DNA of 64,000 nt from Thalassovita mediterranea (lineage in GTDB: Bacteria; Pseudomonadota; Alphaproteobacteria; Rhodobacterales; Rhodobacteraceae). The first letter of the stretch is position 1. Each line of letters starts with the position of its first letter. The DNA lies in the NCBI RefSeq assembly GCF_001458435.1, contig NZ_CYSF01000007.1:124001-188000 (forward strand). The letters run 5' to 3'. Of the stretch, positions 1,665 through 8,270 are shown piece by piece. A model generated the notes under the pieces. That model made no database searches and was not told the origin of the DNA. It saw only the letters and a program-made list of their open reading frames with translations. The translations under genes and the position numbers were made by a program.

Positions 1665-2131
1665 GTGCGATCGATCCCCACAAAGAGCAGAGAGCAAGGT
1701 TACCCACCGATTACATCGGCGGGACTTGTGAGGGGCGGCAAGACTCCCCTTCAAACCCCAACCAGACGCGCGCAAGCGGCGTCAAAGAAGGCCTTTCCGA
1801 GACCGTGATCTTTCGATGCACGCCGTCGGAAAAGGCTGCGCTTGTGGCCAAGGCGCGGGCTGCTGGCCTGCCCAATGCCACGTTGATGCGCGAGGCCTTG
1901 GGGCTGACCGAGGCACGTCGGCGCAAGCCCGTCCCTCGCGTTGATCCGAAGCTGACCTTTGCGATTGCCCGTGTCGGCGGCAACCTCAATCAGCTCTCCC
2001 GCTGGATCAACGGCGCGGTCAAATCCGGCCGCGCGAGCCAGATCGATGCGCTCAAGGTCGCTGCTCAGCTGGTGATCATCGAACGGCAGATGGCGCGGAT
2101 TGTGGCTGAACACACTGCCGGTGGAGAATGA
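1661..2131 (+). CDS. mobC: MobC-family relaxosome accessory protein
   Basis: A 156-residue protein with a disordered N-terminus, a ribbon-helix-helix-like segment (about residues 48-80: TVIFRCTPSEKAALVAKARA) and the hallmark MobC motif VGGNLNQLSRWINGA near residues 105-119. MobC proteins bind oriT DNA and help the relaxase nick it. The start ATG overlaps the stop of the replication-like gene, and its own TGA overlaps the mobA ATG (ATGA at 2128), so the two mob proteins are translationally coupled. The order mobC-mobA matches ColE1-family mobilization regions. oriT itself was not located. Confidence 0.88.
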   Translation: MSAIDPHKEQRARLPTDYIGGTCEGRQDSPSNPNQTRASGVKEGLSETVIFRCTPSEKAALVAKARAAGLPNATLMREALGLTEARRRKPVPRVDPKLTFAIARVGGNLNQLSRWINGAVKSGRASQIDALKVAAQLVIIERQMARIVAEHTAGGE

Positions 2132-3696
2132 TCCTCTCGTTCTTCTCCACCGGCACAGGCGGCGGTGCGGCCCCCGTCGACTACCTGACAGCGCGTGCAG
2201 TTCTGGCCTATGACGAGAACCGCAATCTGATCCGTGACGACACTGGCCAGCCGCAAACCAAGATCCGCGACCCGCTGCCCGAGGTACTGCACGGTAATCC
2301 AGACCAGACCCGTGACCTGATCGATGCGAGCCCCAACAAATGGAGCTACACCGCAGGCGTGATCAGCTTTGCCGACAGCGATGATCCCAGTCCCGACGCC
2401 CAGCAAGAGGCCATTGAGCTATTTGAGGCTCTGGCCTTTGCCGGGCTGGACAGGGATCAATACGATTGCCTTTGGGTGCGCCACTCGCATGAGGGCAACA
2501 TCGAGCTGCACTTTTGCACGCCGCGCCTTGAGCTCAGCTCTGGCAAGGCGCTGAACATCGCGCCTCCAGGGCATGAGAACGCCTTTTCCAGCCTGCGTGA
2601 TCTGATGAACAAGACCCACGGTTGGGCAGACCCTTTGGACCCAGAACGCGCCCGTGAAGTGAGAGCGACGATTGAAGCGCCGACGCGCGCGCAAGGTCGC
2701 GAGGCGCTACACGAATGGATACTCGATCAGATCAGCGTCGGCACCATCACCGACCGCGCCAGCATGATCGATGCTTTGGCCGATGCAGGCTTTGATATCC
2801 CCCGTGCCAGCAAGAATTACATCACCGCCAAAGACCCCGACACCGGCGAGCGCTGGCGATTGAAAGGAGAGATTTTCCATGACGACTGGCAAGCCGAACC
2901 GCCTCGCCGAGAAATTGAACGCGGACCTGGAGACAGTACGCAGCGACCACGCCGCCTTGATGGCATCTCAACTGGAGAGCTTCAGGAGCGATTTCAGCAG
3001 CATTGCGACCAGCGCGCTGCATACAATCGAGACCGATATCAGGTTCTTTCTGAGCGACAGCAGGAGCGAGTTGGAGAGGCGGAGCGAGACGATCAGGCGC
3101 TGGTTGACGATCTCGCCGTGGGTGATCGTGGGGATGGTCTCAGCCTGGATCGCGATGGTGCTGATCGCGAGTTGGCTTTGGACGGGTTTGATTTCGCGCT
3201 CGGAGATGGCGAGGCTTGGCCTGACACGGATCGAACAGGCTGGGCAAACATGGGTGACGCTGGACCCGAACCGGACCGAACTGAAGACCTGCACGATGGC
3301 GCAAACGCCAATCATCTGCATCGAGATCAAGGAGCCTTAGATGACCAATCCACCGACAACGCCCCTGACAGCATTGGAGCGCGAATTGCTCGCATCCGTC
3401 GAGCGGTTGGTGACGGCCTGCGAGAGCTCAGCCACGGAATTGCACGCCTTGGAGAAGCGCTCGACCAGCAGGATCGAAAGCAAGGTGAATGGCTTGGCGC
3501 ATTGCGTGGCGCTATTGATGAAATCACATCTCATGTCCGTCACCACATTGGCCGACTTGCTGCGCGAGGAGCAGAATTACGCGACGCTTCAGGCGGGATT
3601 AGAAACCAGCTGGAAACTAGCGAAAGACGCCGAGAAGCGGCTGAACGAGAGCTAGACGCGCGGGATAGTCACCGCAGCGCAGGGCATTCGCTTTGA
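2128..3696 (+). CDS. mobA: ColE1/MbeA-type mobilization relaxase (MOB-HEN group)
   Basis: A 522-residue relaxase that would nick oriT and lead the strand into a recipient. The N-terminus follows MbeA of ColE1 closely: GTGGGAAPVDYL at 9-20, HGNPDQTRDLIDASP at about 55-69, the SYTAGVISFA block, and the catalytic segment WVRHSHEGNIELHF. In ColE1-type enzymes that segment carries the His-Glu-Asn (HEN) triad; here the positions are H119, E126 and H128, so the final Asn is replaced by His. Motifs typical of the family tail, such as ADPxxGxxxRLKG-like KDPDTGERWRLKGEIF, follow at about 236-251. The region after residue 250 is low-complexity because mobB and mobD are encoded in another frame within it. 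The stop at 3694-3696 lies just before the next small gene. Confidence 0.88.
   Translation: MILSFFSTGTGGGAAPVDYLTARAVLAYDENRNLIRDDTGQPQTKIRDPLPEVLHGNPDQTRDLIDASPNKWSYTAGVISFADSDDPSPDAQQEAIELFEALAFAGLDRDQYDCLWVRHSHEGNIELHFCTPRLELSSGKALNIAPPGHENAFSSLRDLMNKTHGWADPLDPERAREVRATIEAPTRAQGREALHEWILDQISVGTITDRASMIDALADAGFDIPRASKNYITAKDPDTGERWRLKGEIFHDDWQAEPPRREIERGPGDSTQRPRRLDGISTGELQERFQQHCDQRAAYNRDRYQVLSERQQERVGEAERDDQALVDDLAVGDRGDGLSLDRDGADRELALDGFDFALGDGEAWPDTDRTGWANMGDAGPEPDRTEDLHDGANANHLHRDQGALDDQSTDNAPDSIGARIARIRRAVGDGLRELSHGIARLGEALDQQDRKQGEWLGALRGAIDEITSHVRHHIGRLAARGAELRDASGGIRNQLETSERRREAAERELDARDSHRSAGHSL
2879..3340 (+). CDS. mobB: MobB/MbeB-like mobilization protein, encoded inside mobA in another frame
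   Basis: A 153-residue protein read in a different frame fully within the 3' half of mobA. Residues 1-75 are charged and helical, with a likely coiled coil (NRLAEKLNADLETVRSDHAA). Residues about 80-105 form one membrane segment (WVIVGMVSAWIAMVLIASWL). The C-terminal domain has a pair of cysteines (KTCTMAQTPIICIEI). This plan matches ColE1 MbeB: coiled N-terminus, single membrane span, and a C-terminal segment containing a Cys pair. ColE1 mbeB likewise overlaps mbeA out of frame. MbeB-type proteins anchor or stabilise the relaxosome at the membrane. The stop codon directly abuts the mobD start. This is a genuine overlapping gene and not a shadow frame, given the protein architecture and synteny. 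Confidence 0.8.
   Translation: MTTGKPNRLAEKLNADLETVRSDHAALMASQLESFRSDFSSIATSALHTIETDIRFFLSDSRSELERRSETIRRWLTISPWVIVGMVSAWIAMVLIASWLWTGLISRSEMARLGLTRIEQAGQTWVTLDPNRTELKTCTMAQTPIICIEIKEP
3341..3655 (+). CDS. mobD: MobD/MbeD-like mobilization protein, encoded inside mobA in another frame
   Basis: A 104-residue helical protein starting immediately after the mobB stop, in the same frame, and ending within the last codons of mobA. The N-terminus TPLTALERELLASVERL resembles the start of MbeD (short leader, then ELExxLLxALExL). The rest is predicted coiled coil rich in Leu, Glu and Ser. In ColE1, mbeD also follows mbeB and overlaps mbeA. MbeD-type proteins are small accessory mobilization proteins; some exert entry exclusion. 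The assignment rests on position, length and the N-terminal motif, so it is weaker than that for mobB. Confidence 0.7.
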   Translation: MTNPPTTPLTALERELLASVERLVTACESSATELHALEKRSTSRIESKVNGLAHCVALLMKSHLMSVTTLADLLREEQNYATLQAGLETSWKLAKDAEKRLNES

Positions 3697-4028: not shown

Positions 4029-4078
4029 TCAAACTATCACCAGCGCGCCCTGGAGGTTGAAGGAAATGTCGTATATTG

Positions 4079-5380
4079 ATGAAGAAAAACGTTGAGACTG
4101 GAAGTTCTGTGAGCTCAGATTTTGAATGCCGTGAGAAGTTGGCGACAACGCGAAAGCGGCTGCGCATTGACTATCGAGTCATGGCGACGCTCCTCGGCCT
4201 AGGGCCGGATGGAGCTGACATGGTGAAGCAATGGGAGCGCGGGTGCGGGCGAATAAGTCCAACGAAGCAACGTGCAATCGAGAACCTGCCTGATACTATC
4301 CCATTCAAGGACGACCGCAAAAAAGGCTCCTTTCAGTTTATTGATCTTTTTGCTGGCATCGGGGGTATCCGCATTCCGTTTCAGAAATTTGGCGGGAAGT
4401 GCGTATTCACAGCGGAAATCGACAAGCATAGCAAAGTCACATATGCGGCAAATTTCGGGGAGGTTCCTCAGAGGAACGGGGATATTACAAAGTTCACGGC
4501 GTCCGAAATTCCTGATCATGATGTGCTTCTTGCCGGCTTTCCCTGCCAAGCTTTCTCACAAGCCGGAAGGAAGCAGGGTTTTCTAGATACACGTGGCACG
4601 ATGTTCTTCGAAATACAGAGAATTCTTGCCGCACATCATCCGAAAGCCTTTTTGCTCGAGAACGTAAAGCAACTAAAAGGTCACAATGGTGGGGACACGT
4701 TGAAGACCATCATGGCGATTTTAAGGGGCGAAGCCTCTGCGGAAATCCCAAGTGATGTCATGATGTCAGAAGAAGCTCGCGCCAGTCTGGGAACTCATTT
4801 TGACTATGATGTCGATTTCGAAGTCTTGCGTGCGCGGGATTTCGGTGTGCCCCAGATCCGTGAGCGTATCTATATCGTGGGTATCCGTCGCGATAAAGGC
4901 GCGCCGGCCAATCACGAGCGGATCAAGGAGATGTTCGGCAGGATCATTGAGAACTATCAGTTGAAAGTACCTCTCAAAGATATCCTCGTCGATGATCCCG
5001 AGCGCACTAGGGACTTCACTATATCGGATAACCTCTGGACTGGGCACAAGGAACGCAAAGAGCGGAACCGTGCGAATGGCAAGGGGTTCGGGTACAGCCT
5101 TTTTGATCGGACGTCCGAGTATTGCAGCACGATGAGTGCGCGATACTATAAGGATGGTAGCGAAATTCTCATTGATCAGTCGGATTTGGGGCGAAATCCG
5201 CGTAAGCTCCTTCCTGAAGAGGCCCGCGCGTTGCAGGGATTTCCCGAAGAATTCGTGATCGATCGGGTCGGCAGATCTCAACTTTATAAGCAGTTCGGGA
5301 ATTCTGTTGCAGTCCCTGTGATCCGAGCGATAGCAAGCGAGATGCTTAGAGAGGCCAATATCCGGACAAGGAAAACCTGA
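4079..5380 (+). CDS. DNA (cytosine-5-)-methyltransferase with N-terminal HTH-like domain
   Basis: A 433-residue C5 methyltransferase that transfers a methyl group from S-adenosylmethionine to cytosine in DNA. Visible motifs: motif I FIDLFAGIGG (about residues 87-96), motif IV GFPCQAFSQAG with the catalytic Cys near 156, motif VI ENV near 195, motif VIII QIRERIYIVG, and motif X YKQFGNSVAVPVI near the C-terminus. The first 75 residues look like a helix-turn-helix (MATLLGLGPDGADMVKQWER), as in Dcm-like enzymes that bind DNA beyond their target. The start ATG at 4079 lies inside a nine-codon out-of-frame reading frame (4066-4095) that has the better ribosome site, so initiation may be coupled. 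It overlaps vsr by one base (TGATG). No matching restriction endonuclease is present. The recognition sequence cannot be read from sequence. Confidence 0.93.
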   Translation: MKKNVETGSSVSSDFECREKLATTRKRLRIDYRVMATLLGLGPDGADMVKQWERGCGRISPTKQRAIENLPDTIPFKDDRKKGSFQFIDLFAGIGGIRIPFQKFGGKCVFTAEIDKHSKVTYAANFGEVPQRNGDITKFTASEIPDHDVLLAGFPCQAFSQAGRKQGFLDTRGTMFFEIQRILAAHHPKAFLLENVKQLKGHNGGDTLKTIMAILRGEASAEIPSDVMMSEEARASLGTHFDYDVDFEVLRARDFGVPQIRERIYIVGIRRDKGAPANHERIKEMFGRIIENYQLKVPLKDILVDDPERTRDFTISDNLWTGHKERKERNRANGKGFGYSLFDRTSEYCSTMSARYYKDGSEILIDQSDLGRNPRKLLPEEARALQGFPEEFVIDRVGRSQLYKQFGNSVAVPVIRAIASEMLREANIRTRKT

Positions 5381-5733
5381 TGGTCGACATCGTGTCCTCG
5401 GAGGCTCGTAGTCGAATGATGTCAGGCATCAAAGGCAAGGACACGAAGCCGGAAATCCTGGTAAGGCAATTACTGCACCGCGCTGGCTACAGATTCAGGC
5501 TTCATCGGAAAGATCTTCCCGGTCGACCAGATCTTGTCCTTTCACGCTACAATACAGCGCTATTCGTGAATGGCTGTTTCTGGCATGGGCACGAGGATTG
5601 CCATCTTTTTCGCCTCCCGAAATCGCGCCAGGACTTCTGGGAAGTGAAGATTTCCGGCAATAAGGCACGGGACCTTCGAAAACAAACAGAACTCTTTGAG
5701 TGTGAACGGCGGAGCAATACTCGGCCACGGTAG
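5380..5733 (+). pseudogene. vsr: vsr, very short patch repair endonuclease, 3'-truncated by IS21
   Basis: Vsr nicks DNA at T:G mismatches produced when 5-methylcytosine deaminates, and its gene typically follows the methyltransferase as here. Residues 1-107 are native: MMSGIKGKDTKPE near 13-25, the catalytic Asp51 in GRPDLVL, and the zinc-site segment VNGCFWHGHEDC at 63-74. Family members run to about 140 residues and need a later Cys to complete the zinc site. That part is missing, because the frame enters the IS left end at 5701 and stops after ten foreign residues. His64 of E. coli Vsr corresponds to Asn here. The remnant is very unlikely to be active. Confidence 0.9.
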
Positions 5734-5802
5734 CGACGGCATAGTGTTGTCGCGGGCGGCGTAAAAGTCGTCCACTTTTGCCCTTTCGGATTTCGGGAGG
5801 GC

Positions 5803-7308
5803 TTGGGGATATACACCGTGGACTTGTATTTGAAGGTGCGTCACGCTCATTTCCAGGATGGATTGAGCGGGCGTCAGATTGCCCGGGATTTTGGGATCAG
5901 CCGGGACAGTGTTGCGAAGATGTTGGCCTATTCGGAACCGCCGGGATATCGGCGGACAGCGCCGATCAGGCGCCCGAAGCTGGATGCGTTCACCAGCCAG
6001 ATGGACCAATGGCTTGCTGAAGACAGGAGCCGCCCTCGCAAGCAGCGTCACACCGCCAAGCGTATTTTCGAGCGGTTGCGGGACGAGTGCGGTTTTGATG
6101 GCAGCTACACCATCGTCAAGGATTACGTTCGAGACCGGAAGCGGACCGGCAAGGAGATGTTCGTGCCGCTGAGCCATCCGCCCGGTCATGCACAGGCCGA
6201 TTTTGGTGAAGCGCTTGTCGTGATCGGCGGCGTCGAGCAGAAGGCACACTTCTTTGCCCTCGATCTGCCGCACAGCGACGCATGCTACATCCGGGCCTAT
6301 CCTGCGGCCAATACCGAGGCGTGGCTTGACGGCCATGTCCATGCCTTTGCGTTCTTCGGCGCGGTTCCCCAGTCGGTTCTTTATGACAATGACCGCTGTC
6401 TGGTGGCCCGGATTCTGCCGGATGGCTCCCGGCAAAGAACCCAGCGGTTCAGCGCGATGTTGTCGCATTACGTGATCCGGGACCGCTATGGCCGTCCCGG
6501 CAAGGGCAATGACAAAGGGGCCGTGGAGGGGCTGGTCGGCTACGGACGTCGCAACTTCATGGTGCCGATCCCGTCCTTTCCGGACTGGCACGCGTTCAAC
6601 GCTCACCTGGAAGAGCAGTGCCGCAAGCGCCAGGGTGATGTTCTGCGTGGCCACAAGGTCAGCATCGGGGAACGGCTGAAGGCCGATCTCGCGGCGATGC
6701 GGGATTTGCCCGGCACCCCCTTTGAGGCCTGTGAGTTGCAAAGTGGCCAGGTCACATCGACATCGGTGGTGCGTTATCGCGGCAATGATTACTCGGTGCC
6801 GGTTGCCTACGGCCACCGTGCGGTCTGGATCAAGGGCTTCGTGACCCGGGTTGTCATCGGCTGCGGCGCCGAGGTGATCGCTGAGCATTCGCGCTCCTAT
6901 GACACCGGCGACATGGTGTTTGATCCACTGCATTACCTGGCGCTGATCGAACGCAAGATCATGTCCTTCGATCAGGCCGCGCCTCTGCAGGGCTGGGAGT
7001 TGCCCGAAGCGTTCAAAACCCTGCGCCGACTGCTGGAAGCCCGGCAGGGAAAGGCCGGCAAGCGCGAGTATGTGCAGGTCCTGCGCCTTCTGGAGCGCTT
7101 CGAGATTGACGTGCTGCATCTTGCCGTCAAAGATGCCCTGCGAATGGGAGCGGTCAGCTTCGATGCAATCAAGCACCTGATCTTGTGCAGGGTCGAGCAA
7201 AGGCCTCCGAGGCTGGATCTGGATGTCTATCCCTTCCTGCCCAGAACCAACATCACCACCACCTCCGCCGCATCCTACATGAGCCTGCTGGCAGGAGGTG
7301 GGGCATGA
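5803..7308 (+). CDS. istA: IS21-family transposase IstA
   Basis: A 501-residue transposase. The N-terminus has a helix-turn-helix (LSGRQIARDFGISRDSVAKM, about residues 22-41). The DDE catalytic core shows Asp in HAQADFGEALV (near 129), Asp in SVLYDNDRC, and Glu in GAVEGLVGYGRR. The C-terminal beta-rich DNA-binding part includes VVRYRGNDYSVPV. TTG at 5803 follows a GGGAGG closely; an in-frame GTG at 5818 is an alternative. The stop overlaps the istB start, so IstB is translationally coupled. IstA binds the terminal repeats and cuts and joins the ends with the help of IstB. The frame appears intact. Confidence 0.95.
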   Translation: MGIYTVDLYLKVRHAHFQDGLSGRQIARDFGISRDSVAKMLAYSEPPGYRRTAPIRRPKLDAFTSQMDQWLAEDRSRPRKQRHTAKRIFERLRDECGFDGSYTIVKDYVRDRKRTGKEMFVPLSHPPGHAQADFGEALVVIGGVEQKAHFFALDLPHSDACYIRAYPAANTEAWLDGHVHAFAFFGAVPQSVLYDNDRCLVARILPDGSRQRTQRFSAMLSHYVIRDRYGRPGKGNDKGAVEGLVGYGRRNFMVPIPSFPDWHAFNAHLEEQCRKRQGDVLRGHKVSIGERLKADLAAMRDLPGTPFEACELQSGQVTSTSVVRYRGNDYSVPVAYGHRAVWIKGFVTRVVIGCGAEVIAEHSRSYDTGDMVFDPLHYLALIERKIMSFDQAAPLQGWELPEAFKTLRRLLEARQGKAGKREYVQVLRLLERFEIDVLHLAVKDALRMGAVSFDAIKHLILCRVEQRPPRLDLDVYPFLPRTNITTTSAASYMSLLAGGGA

Positions 7309-8069
7309 CGGATGCACCCGAACTGCTGCTGGCCCACCATCTCAAAACGCTTCGGCTGCCCACGTTCCTGCGTGAACATGACAAGCAGGCCCGTATCTGC
7401 GCCGCTGAAGGCGTAGATCACGTGCGTTACCTGGCCCGGCTGACCGAGCTGGAACTGATCGACCGGGAACGGCGCATGGTGGAACGCCGGATCAAGGCCG
7501 CAAAGTTCCCGACCATCAAAAGCCTGGACAGCTTCGACTTCAAGGCGATCCCGTCGCTCAACAAGATGATGGTGCTGGAGCTGGCGCGCTGCGAATGGAT
7601 CGAACGCAAGGAGAATGTGATCGCGCTCGGTCCCTCCGGCACCGGCAAGACCCATGTCGCCCTCGGGCTGGGACTGGCTGCCTGCCAGAAAGGATTGCCT
7701 GTCGCCTTCGTGACCGCCGCAGCCCTCGTGCACGAGATGATGGAGGCCCGCGACGAAAAACGCCTCCTGCAACTCCAGCGCAAACTCGCCAAGGTCAAAC
7801 TGCTGATCATCGACGAGCTGGGATTCGTCCCCTTGAGCAAAACCGGCGCCGAGCTTCTGTTCGAGCTGATCTCACAGCGCTACGAGCGAGGGTCGACCCT
7901 GATCACAAGCAACCTGCCCTTCGAGGAGTGGACCGAAACCTTCGGCACCGAACGCCTGACCGGCGCGCTGCTGGACCGGCTGACACACCACGTCAACATC
8001 CTCGAGATGAACGGCGAAAGCTACCGCCTCAATCAAAGCCGCGCCCGCCTCGCCGCCGCTAACAAATGA
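7305..8069 (+). CDS. istB: IS21-family ATPase helper IstB
   Basis: A 254-residue AAA+ ATPase that assists IstA in target selection. Walker A is ALGPSGTGKTHVALGLG (about residues 106-122), Walker B is LLIIDELGFV, and further on come the sensor-like TLITSNLPFEEW and the arginine-containing end TGALLDRLTHH. The ATG overlaps the istA TGA (ATGA at 7305), so I do not use the longer upstream reading frame. Length and motifs are standard and the gene looks functional. The non-coding tail up to 8207 holds the right terminal repeats. Confidence 0.95.
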   Translation: MTDAPELLLAHHLKTLRLPTFLREHDKQARICAAEGVDHVRYLARLTELELIDRERRMVERRIKAAKFPTIKSLDSFDFKAIPSLNKMMVLELARCEWIERKENVIALGPSGTGKTHVALGLGLAACQKGLPVAFVTAAALVHEMMEARDEKRLLQLQRKLAKVKLLIIDELGFVPLSKTGAELLFELISQRYERGSTLITSNLPFEEWTETFGTERLTGALLDRLTHHVNILEMNGESYRLNQSRARLAAANK

Positions 8070-8223
8070 ACCTCACAGAATTGGCCTGACGGCCAATGCG
8101 CCTTGGACCGGGCTTGCTATATGAGGGCCGCACGCTCCAAGGCGCTCGCCCCAAACTGGCCGACTTTTGCTCCGCCACAATGGCCGAATTTTACTCCGCC
8201 GTTGACAAGCACTATGAACACAT

Positions 8224-8270
8224 CCCTCCTAAGGGGCAGGTTGCAGGTTCGAATCCTGCCGGGGTCGCCA
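8224..8270 (+). repeat. attR: second copy of the 47-bp tRNA-Arg 3' end
   Basis: Identical over 47 bases to 605-651, the 3' part of tRNA-Arg including the CCA. Sequences diverge at 8223 and 8271. It is only a tRNA fragment, lacking acceptor 5' strand and D arm, and so is not a tRNA gene. Just 16 bases separate it from the IS right end. Confidence 0.92.

Follow-up and report, generated by a model that had tools for sequence, protein, structure and literature searches.

The mobilization locus considered here lies in a 64,000-nt stretch of the Thalassovita mediterranea genome (Alphaproteobacteria, Rhodobacterales, Rhodobacteraceae; NCBI RefSeq assembly GCF_001458435.1, contig NZ_CYSF01000007.1, positions 124,001 to 188,000 of the forward strand; hereafter the window), where two reading frames, mobB and mobD, sit out of frame inside the 3′ half of a relaxase gene, mobA. 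An earlier note, made from the letters alone, likened this arrangement to the mbeA/B/D genes of plasmid ColE1, and the locus raises the question of whether the nested frames are real genes, to what they are related, and how such a layout came to lie in an alphaproteobacterial island. We hold it very probable that the two frames are the mobB and mobD genes of a MOBP5-type (MbeA-like) module of the form oriT-mobC-mobA(mobB,mobD), where oriT is the origin of transfer, carried on an integrative mobilizable element (IME) in tRNA-Arg(CCT). This reading is carried by the layout itself, by selection acting on both frames, by the homology of the relaxase, by attachment (att) repeats, and by an integrase gene found at the right repeat in eight relatives.

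Layout of the mobilization module

The module comprises the following features.

2128-3696, + strand: mobA, MbeA-like (MOBP5-type) relaxase of 522 aa, motif III WVRHSHEGNIELHF (NCBIfam NF047848)
2879-3340, + strand: mobB, 153 aa, +1 frame, wholly within mobA; helical N terminus, membrane span, Cys pair
3341-3655, + strand: mobD, 104 aa, helical, +1 frame, wholly within mobA; N-terminal LTALERELL motif
1661-2131, + strand: mobC, NikA/MobC-like relaxosome accessory protein (Pfam NikA-like, E 1.5e-10; MobC, E 1.3e-4)
2863-2869, + strand: AAAGGAG, mobB ribosome-binding site, unchanged in 30 of the 36 copies
3329-3334, + strand: AAGGAG, ribosome-binding site of mobD, within the mobB end (read from the sequence)

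The coordinates, frames, abutting stop and start, membrane span and Cys pair that the earlier note had described are all correct. The TAG of mobB is followed at the very next base by the ATG of mobD, mobC and mobA overlap by 4 nt, and MobB has a single hydrophobic span (residues 82-100) with two Cys residues, 138 and 147, C-terminal of it. Gene order and relative frame are likewise those of ColE1 mbeA/B/D, as had been proposed.

Both frames are under selection in the overlap

Relatives were drawn from 394 genomes of the same family, 67 of which hold a mobA match at E 0.001 (weak and partial matches counted); a class-wide sample of 385 genomes has a match in five (three of them same-family, the window's own included). 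In the family search there were, besides the window's, 82 match rows, of which 54 were fetched, the remainder being mostly fragments or weak; the resulting 55 loci, window included, were reduced to 39 by a full-length filter and, after three remote ones were dropped, to 36 copies that include the window's.

In all 36 full-length copies the mobB ATG stands at offset 751, with the frame open in 34 (exceptions L051 and L060) and an exact AAAGGAG 5′ of it in 30 (exceptions L060, L061, L063, L066, L067 and L087). An ATG directly follows the first stop at the mobB/mobD junction in 32 copies; of the others, L067 uses GTG instead, in L066 the ATG comes one codon further on, and L051 and L060 have an early stop. 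Since the intact L063 gene (565 aa) falls beyond the length limits, the rate tests were made on 33 copies, from which 78 pairs at 85-98% identity were taken.

The main proof of the nested genes is comparative: within the overlap, variation shifts from the third positions of mobA to those of mobB and mobD. Differences at mobA third positions drop from 0.237 in the 5′ half to 0.048 inside mobB and 0.058 inside mobD, and at positions that are third in mobB/mobD they climb from 0.059 in the 5′ half to 0.123 (mobB) and 0.117 (mobD). Four-fold sites of mobA change at 0.253 (0.227-0.277) where it codes singly, at 0.036 inside mobB and at 0.025 inside mobD; those of the nested genes change at 0.139 (0.106-0.173) in mobB and 0.114 (0.081-0.149) in mobD, about half the free rate, so that mobA is constrained in the overlap too. 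Nine disjoint pairs give the same picture at four-fold sites (mobA alone 0.246, in mobB 0.029, in mobD 0.030; mobB 0.129, mobD 0.113). Both frames are under selection in the overlap, which is the outcome that the earlier note had looked for when it proposed a synonymous-site test in both frames among relatives. When protein identities are compared pair by pair, the nested frame scores above the mobA frame in 436 of 528 pairs (mobB) and 515 of 528 (mobD); the same frame in the 5′ half, taken as a control, does so in 0 of 528.

These data leave virtually no credence to the view that the nested frames are chance openings that persist through GC-rich codon usage and because MobA alone is selected. 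Synonymous shuffling of mobA codons leaves both nested frames open in 10 of 500 trials for the window (mean 24 over the 33 copies, range 0-127). The top of that range, reached in one copy, favours the chance view, as do open stretches of up to 181 codons that L062 has in the unused +2 frame of its 5′ half; against this, the position-specific rates reverse solely inside the nested stretch, the start, ribosome-binding site and junction are conserved, two Cys beyond residue 100 are present in 33/33 aligned MobB copies, and the same kind of nested pair recurs in 14 of the 18 distant relaxase genes examined by name (see below). We reject chance open frames on the codon-position and four-fold rates.

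It is also unlikely, though less remotely so, that mobB and mobD are real and yet the sole selected frames in the 3′ half, with mobA there a passive open tail. Identity within the overlap is only slightly higher in the mobA frame (0.540 and 0.535) than in the unused +2 frame (0.517 and 0.491), which lends that view some weight and counts against selection on both frames; however, sites silent in mobB/mobD and first in mobA change at 0.139/0.114 rather than at the free 0.253, and shuffling the codons of mobB and mobD breaks mobA, which stays open in 0 of 500 trials for the window (mean 14 over the copies, range 0-89).

Relation to MbeA, MbeB and MbeD

MobA matches the NCBIfam model NF047848 (relax_MbeA_E1) over residues 1-343 with 149.4 bits and E 1.8e-43, a score below the model's own cut-off of 500 bits. 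Motif III could be located in 48 of the 55 loci, with His (ELHF) in every one, and carries Asn in ColE1, Hafnia and Enterobacter; among 18 named plasmids it has His in nine and Asn in three, and the pattern was not found in six. We accordingly classify the window relaxase, from its sequence, as MbeA-like with an HEH motif III and not as HEN in the strict sense. Genome G026, from another family of the class, holds two MbeA-type relaxases (L117, L120) that carry the HEN motif, with a MobB-like frame nested in the gene.

For the nested products the earlier note had envisaged direct matches to MbeB and MbeD family models, and these did not materialize: the window's MobB and MobD match no mobilization family in Pfam or NCBIfam, MobB giving just two weak, chance-level matches in Pfam (0.1 and 0.13). 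NCBIfam is uninformative on MobB, because ColE1 MbeB itself matches no MbeB model there. Family similarity and dual-frame constraint were the two findings on which that note had let its reading depend; the first fails as a direct match to the models, and the second is present.

Profile comparison through intermediates nevertheless points firmly to a link between MobB and MbeB. With hhalign, the 33 MobB sequences align to eight nested MobB-position proteins of other plasmids at E 2.7e-15, those eight align to MbeB of ColE1, Hafnia and Enterobacter at 2.3e-17, and the 33 align to the three MbeB directly at 1.5e-5 (0.053 when reversed, 0.028 for the lowest of 20 shuffles); over these comparisons the reversed controls gave 0.053-0.069 and the smallest of 20 column-shuffled ones 0.028-0.14. 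A link of MobD to MbeD is suggested less firmly by the same approach: the MobD of the eight other plasmids aligns to ColE1/Hafnia MbeD at 2.6e-12, MobD of the tRNA-Ser and Paracoccus types aligns to MbeD at 1.4e-5, and a pooled MobD profile that includes the window's does so at 5.2e-9, a score that its other members may carry. Zymomonas MobD matches Pfam MbeD_MobD at 1.8e-13, above cut-off. The N-terminal motif (M/L)T-x-(L/F)E-xx-LL is found in 22 of 23 MobD rows, Chondrocystis having MSELENQLR. In relative L075, nested MobB reaches Pfam MbeB_N at 0.0018 (19.0 bits, cut-off 22), and MobD reaches Pfam MbeD_MobD at 0.0029 and NCBIfam plas_excl_MbeD at 0.00029, both under cut-off.

Several points, besides the missing model matches, pull the other way. 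MobB against ColE1 and Hafnia MbeB alone gives 0.0034, close to its reversed controls at 0.0049-0.035, and the MobD of the window group alone gives 0.002 against ColE1/Hafnia MbeD (0.11 for the lowest of 20 shuffles) and 0.0015 against the eight others. The profile E-values stem from single comparisons, the marginal Pfam matches of L075 sit beside unrelated coiled-coil families scoring alike, and the MobB topology predicted from charge is weak (22/33).

A MobB search of the 385 class-wide genomes matched nine, the window's own included; the six weakest matches (E 1.3e-4 to 6.8e-4, 25-36% identity) may be coiled-coil chance. MobD, searched in a phage collection, had no match there.

Distribution and age of the nested layout

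The 18 named plasmid relaxase genes were hand-picked from plasmid matches, with ColE1 added by accession, and are not a random sample. A clear nested mobB-mobD pair is present in 14 of them: ColE1, Hafnia, Paracoccus marcusii, P. aestuarii, P. yeei, Yoonia and Zymomonas, together with Klebsiella, Rahnella, Arsenophonus, Chondrocystis, Halomonas, Methylomarinovum and Aeromonas. The Enterobacter stretch ends before mobD, Polaromonas has a MobB-like frame alone, Rippkaea has a MobB-like frame followed by a gap and then a frame with a MobD-like start, and the stretch examined in Acinetobacter holds no nested pair. The earlier note's premise that the layout belongs with gammaproteobacterial ColE1-type plasmids is not supported, since nested pairs also occur in Paracoccus, Yoonia and Zymomonas plasmids and in one from the cyanobacterium Chondrocystis. 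The taxonomic surprise is mostly removed, and the arrangement in the window is related to that of ColE1 but belongs to an old and widespread group. A Rhodobacterales origin is supported by the best plasmid matches, which are to Ruegeria and Neotabrizicola.

In a midpoint-rooted tree of 55 relaxases, 11 of them gamma- or betaproteobacterial rows, the window falls inside a clade of 35 same-family rows (100/95), and ColE1, Hafnia and Enterobacter form a separate clade of their own (100/100) on a long branch. A clade of Zymomonas, Klebsiella, Rahnella and Arsenophonus branches off between the two. The tRNA-Ser rows L075 and L076 lie outside the 35-row clade, the joins among deep lineages are tentative, and several branches are long. 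A recent acquisition of the module from a gammaproteobacterial ColE1-type plasmid would fit the shared gene order and frame and the match of the relaxase to the MbeA model; set against these are the tree positions just described, the HEH rather than HEN form of motif III, and the identities among the best 60 of 3610 plasmid records, where Rhodobacterales copies reach 42-57% and gammaproteobacterial copies 31-41%, over differing lengths. We judge such an acquisition highly improbable. The earlier note had offered broad transfer or deep ancestry; the midpoint-rooted tree speaks more for an old divergence than for a recent transfer out of ColE1.

The integrated element

The ends of the element and its other named features are as follows.

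575-651, + strand: tRNA-Arg(CCT), integration target (ARAGORN); attL is its final 45 nt (607-651)
8226-8270, + strand: attR, repeating the last 45 nt of tRNA-Arg exactly
4076-5380, + strand: cargo C5 cytosine DNA methyltransferase (Pfam DNA_methylase, 1.4e-85)
5380-5733, + strand: cargo Vsr-like endonuclease (Pfam Vsr, 4.2e-28), the 3′ end running into the IS21-type insertion
5705-8203 (ends approximate), + strand: IS21-type insertion sequence, istA at 5803-7308 and istB ending at 8069

The island of the earlier note is very probably an IME in tRNA-Arg(CCT), with 45-nt repeats at its ends. It spans 7.6 kb between the direct repeats at 607-651 and 8226-8270, and its last 63 nt (8208-8270) agree at 97% with the right end of L044, one of the relatives. 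Exact 45-nt repeats also bound L042, L043, L044, L053 and L057 (11.5-17.9 kb), and repeats with one or two mismatches bound L040, L052 and L056. In all eight of these repeat-bounded relatives a tyrosine integrase gene lies just inside the right repeat (Phage_integrase 1.8e-9 for that of L044), preceded in L044 and L057, the two with open reading frames (ORFs) listed, by an XRE-type regulator (called by Pfam for L044). Across the 55 loci, 51 of which hold that much upstream DNA, a tRNA gene stands within 1600 nt 5′ of mobA in 24, 20 of them Arg-CCT and four Pro-CGG; in 16 of these 24 the distance from mobA is 1473-1479 nt.

Some observations sit uneasily with this interpretation. No integrase or trace of one was found in the window, where the IS21-type element stands in its place, and the integrase search in ten extended loci left four without a match. 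No tRNA gene occurs within 1600 nt upstream of mobA in 31 of the 55 loci, and a search via the right-hand flank in 31 genomes found no empty site, matching only the window's own genome and, weakly, one other. Since eight relatives have an integrase next to the right repeat and the window has none, its copy looks defective. The IS21-type insertion is recognizable by Pfam Mu-transpos_C_2 and IstB_IS21 matches and 10-nt inverted repeats, and it appears to have truncated the Vsr-like gene.

Related mob modules in L066, L070, L075 and L076 lie ~3.9-4.3 kb downstream of tRNA-Ser(GCT) and could belong to a second element lineage; no exact repeat of the tRNA-Ser(GCT) end was found in these four stretches.

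Proposed mechanism and known systems

On the IME reading, MobC and MobA would form a relaxosome at the oriT-like element, mobB would be translated from its own internal start on the mobA mRNA, and mobD by coupling at the mobB stop/start junction. By analogy with ColE1, the membrane-anchored helical MobB would dock the relaxosome at a resident type IV secretion system (T4SS) through the coupling protein of the latter, and MobD would be a small helical accessory protein. Transfer would then use a helper conjugative system, and since genes of the T4SS-DNA_transf and VirB4 types are present on contig C19 of the same genome, such a helper is conceivable. The window copy keeps its mob genes and has no integrase, the IS21-type insertion lying where relatives have that gene.

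A close known counterpart is ColE1 mbeC-mbeA-mbeB-mbeD (NC_001371), which likewise has its MobC gene first, mobB and mobD nested in the +1 frame of the relaxase gene, one membrane span in MbeB, and an mbeD that begins right after mbeB. Unlike the window element, ColE1 is a replicating plasmid, with ELNF (HEN) in motif III instead of ELHF, an MbeB without Cys, and MbeB and MbeD that match Pfam models. Relative to the known module, what is new here is that it is integrated, has the HEH motif, and encodes diverged MobB and MobD.

In print, a close case is the Paracoccus plasmid pair pMARC2/pAES4, described in 2013 as MOBP5 with overlapping mobA, mobB and mobC; the relevant passages name these three genes, and mobD is unnamed in them (PMC3832669). 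The two share with the window a Rhodobacterales MOBP5 module with overlapping mobA/mobB, the ELHF motif, an oriT-like sequence of like form (5′ of mobC in these plasmids), a nested MobB with a Cys pair, and a MobD beginning LTAFERALL/LTPFERALL; they differ in being small replicating plasmids on a separate branch of the tree. Related modules elsewhere include Helicobacter pylori pHel4/pHel12, for which passages of PMC3447787 give homologues of MbeA, MbeB, MbeC and MbeD, and a Salmonella ColE-type plasmid with internally encoded MobB and MobD, according to passages of PMC9282650. With canonical IMEs the element shares att repeats, an integrase in its relatives, its own relaxase and accessory protein, and the lack of any T4SS family match, here among the ten ORF products examined. 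The parts consulted of a 2017 review state that no canonical IME had then been described in Proteobacteria (PMC5704250), and those of a 2021 study of Mesorhizobium IMEs assign them MOBF or MOBQ relaxases (PMC8627217). Among the matches listed from open-licence papers, no report of MOBP5 IMEs in Rhodobacterales was found.

We lean, by a little more than an even chance, to a broader reading in which canonical IMEs have spread as one family through the tRNA-Arg(CCT) and tRNA-Pro(CGG) genes of this alphaproteobacterial group. On that reading they carry a fully compressed MOBP5-type module, with the oriT-like element in the 5′ region of mobC, an overlap of mobC with mobA, and mobB and mobD within mobA, and the nesting is older than the cyanobacterial/proteobacterial split of the relaxase. 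If true, this would place the gene-within-gene mob arrangement among the most persistent overlaps in bacteria. Overlapping bacterial genes are easily mistaken for annotation noise, and the 33 aligned copies provide a clean quantitative two-frame case. Nested MobB and MobD also escape current family models: in the gene table for six Rhodobacterales plasmid records, itself incomplete, they are hypothetical proteins in Neotabrizicola, pMARC2 and pAES4 and unlisted in Ruegeria, P. yeei and Yoonia. The elements are a likely route for restriction-type and other cargo among these bacteria, riding on helper conjugation systems.

The oriT-like element and the start of mobC

One further feature falls inside the mobC reading frame or its leader.

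1725-1759, + strand: oriT-like element, CTTGTGAGGGG...CCCCTTCAAACCCC

The pattern CTTGnGAGGGG-CGGC-nnGCCTCCCCTTCn'AACCCC, derived from the window group, lies 374-401 nt upstream of mobA (437 in L073, where the mobA start is mis-set) and is found with at most seven mismatches in 43 of the 55 loci, against 8-12 mismatches in 40 control stretches. It resembles the predicted oriT of pMARC2/pAES4, located upstream of their mobC. ColE1 differs from the window in having its oriT upstream of mobC. The true start of mobC may lie 3′ of the element.

Two marked bases covary, over few lineage changes: in 42 loci they are C/G in 31, T/A in nine, G/C in one and G/G in one (10, 5, 1 and 1 among 17 distinct segments), the lone G/G pair coming from a copy that carries an extra G and whose register is shifted. 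The covarying bases are paired in the folded common form and unpaired in the folded window form. In DNA folding, neither the window segment (z -0.20) nor the common form (z 0.48) did better than shuffled sequences, and pMARC2 did (z -2.13); folding energy thus lends no support to a hairpin in the window.

Further genes and cargo

The left end of the element holds one more gene.

807-1664, + strand: left-end gene, 285 aa, start codon tentative, with an ATGA overlap with mobC

Its product has no Pfam match at E 5 and no NCBIfam match. In 33 of 54 relatives a tblastn match to it lies 5′ of mobA, often to the C-terminal half alone. The gene adjoins the attL side and could encode a replication or regulatory protein. 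By eye, the cargo of L044 comprises another C5 methyltransferase with ATPase/response-regulator-like genes, and the annotation of the Neotabrizicola plasmid (L098) lists SIR2, Fic and HNH genes.

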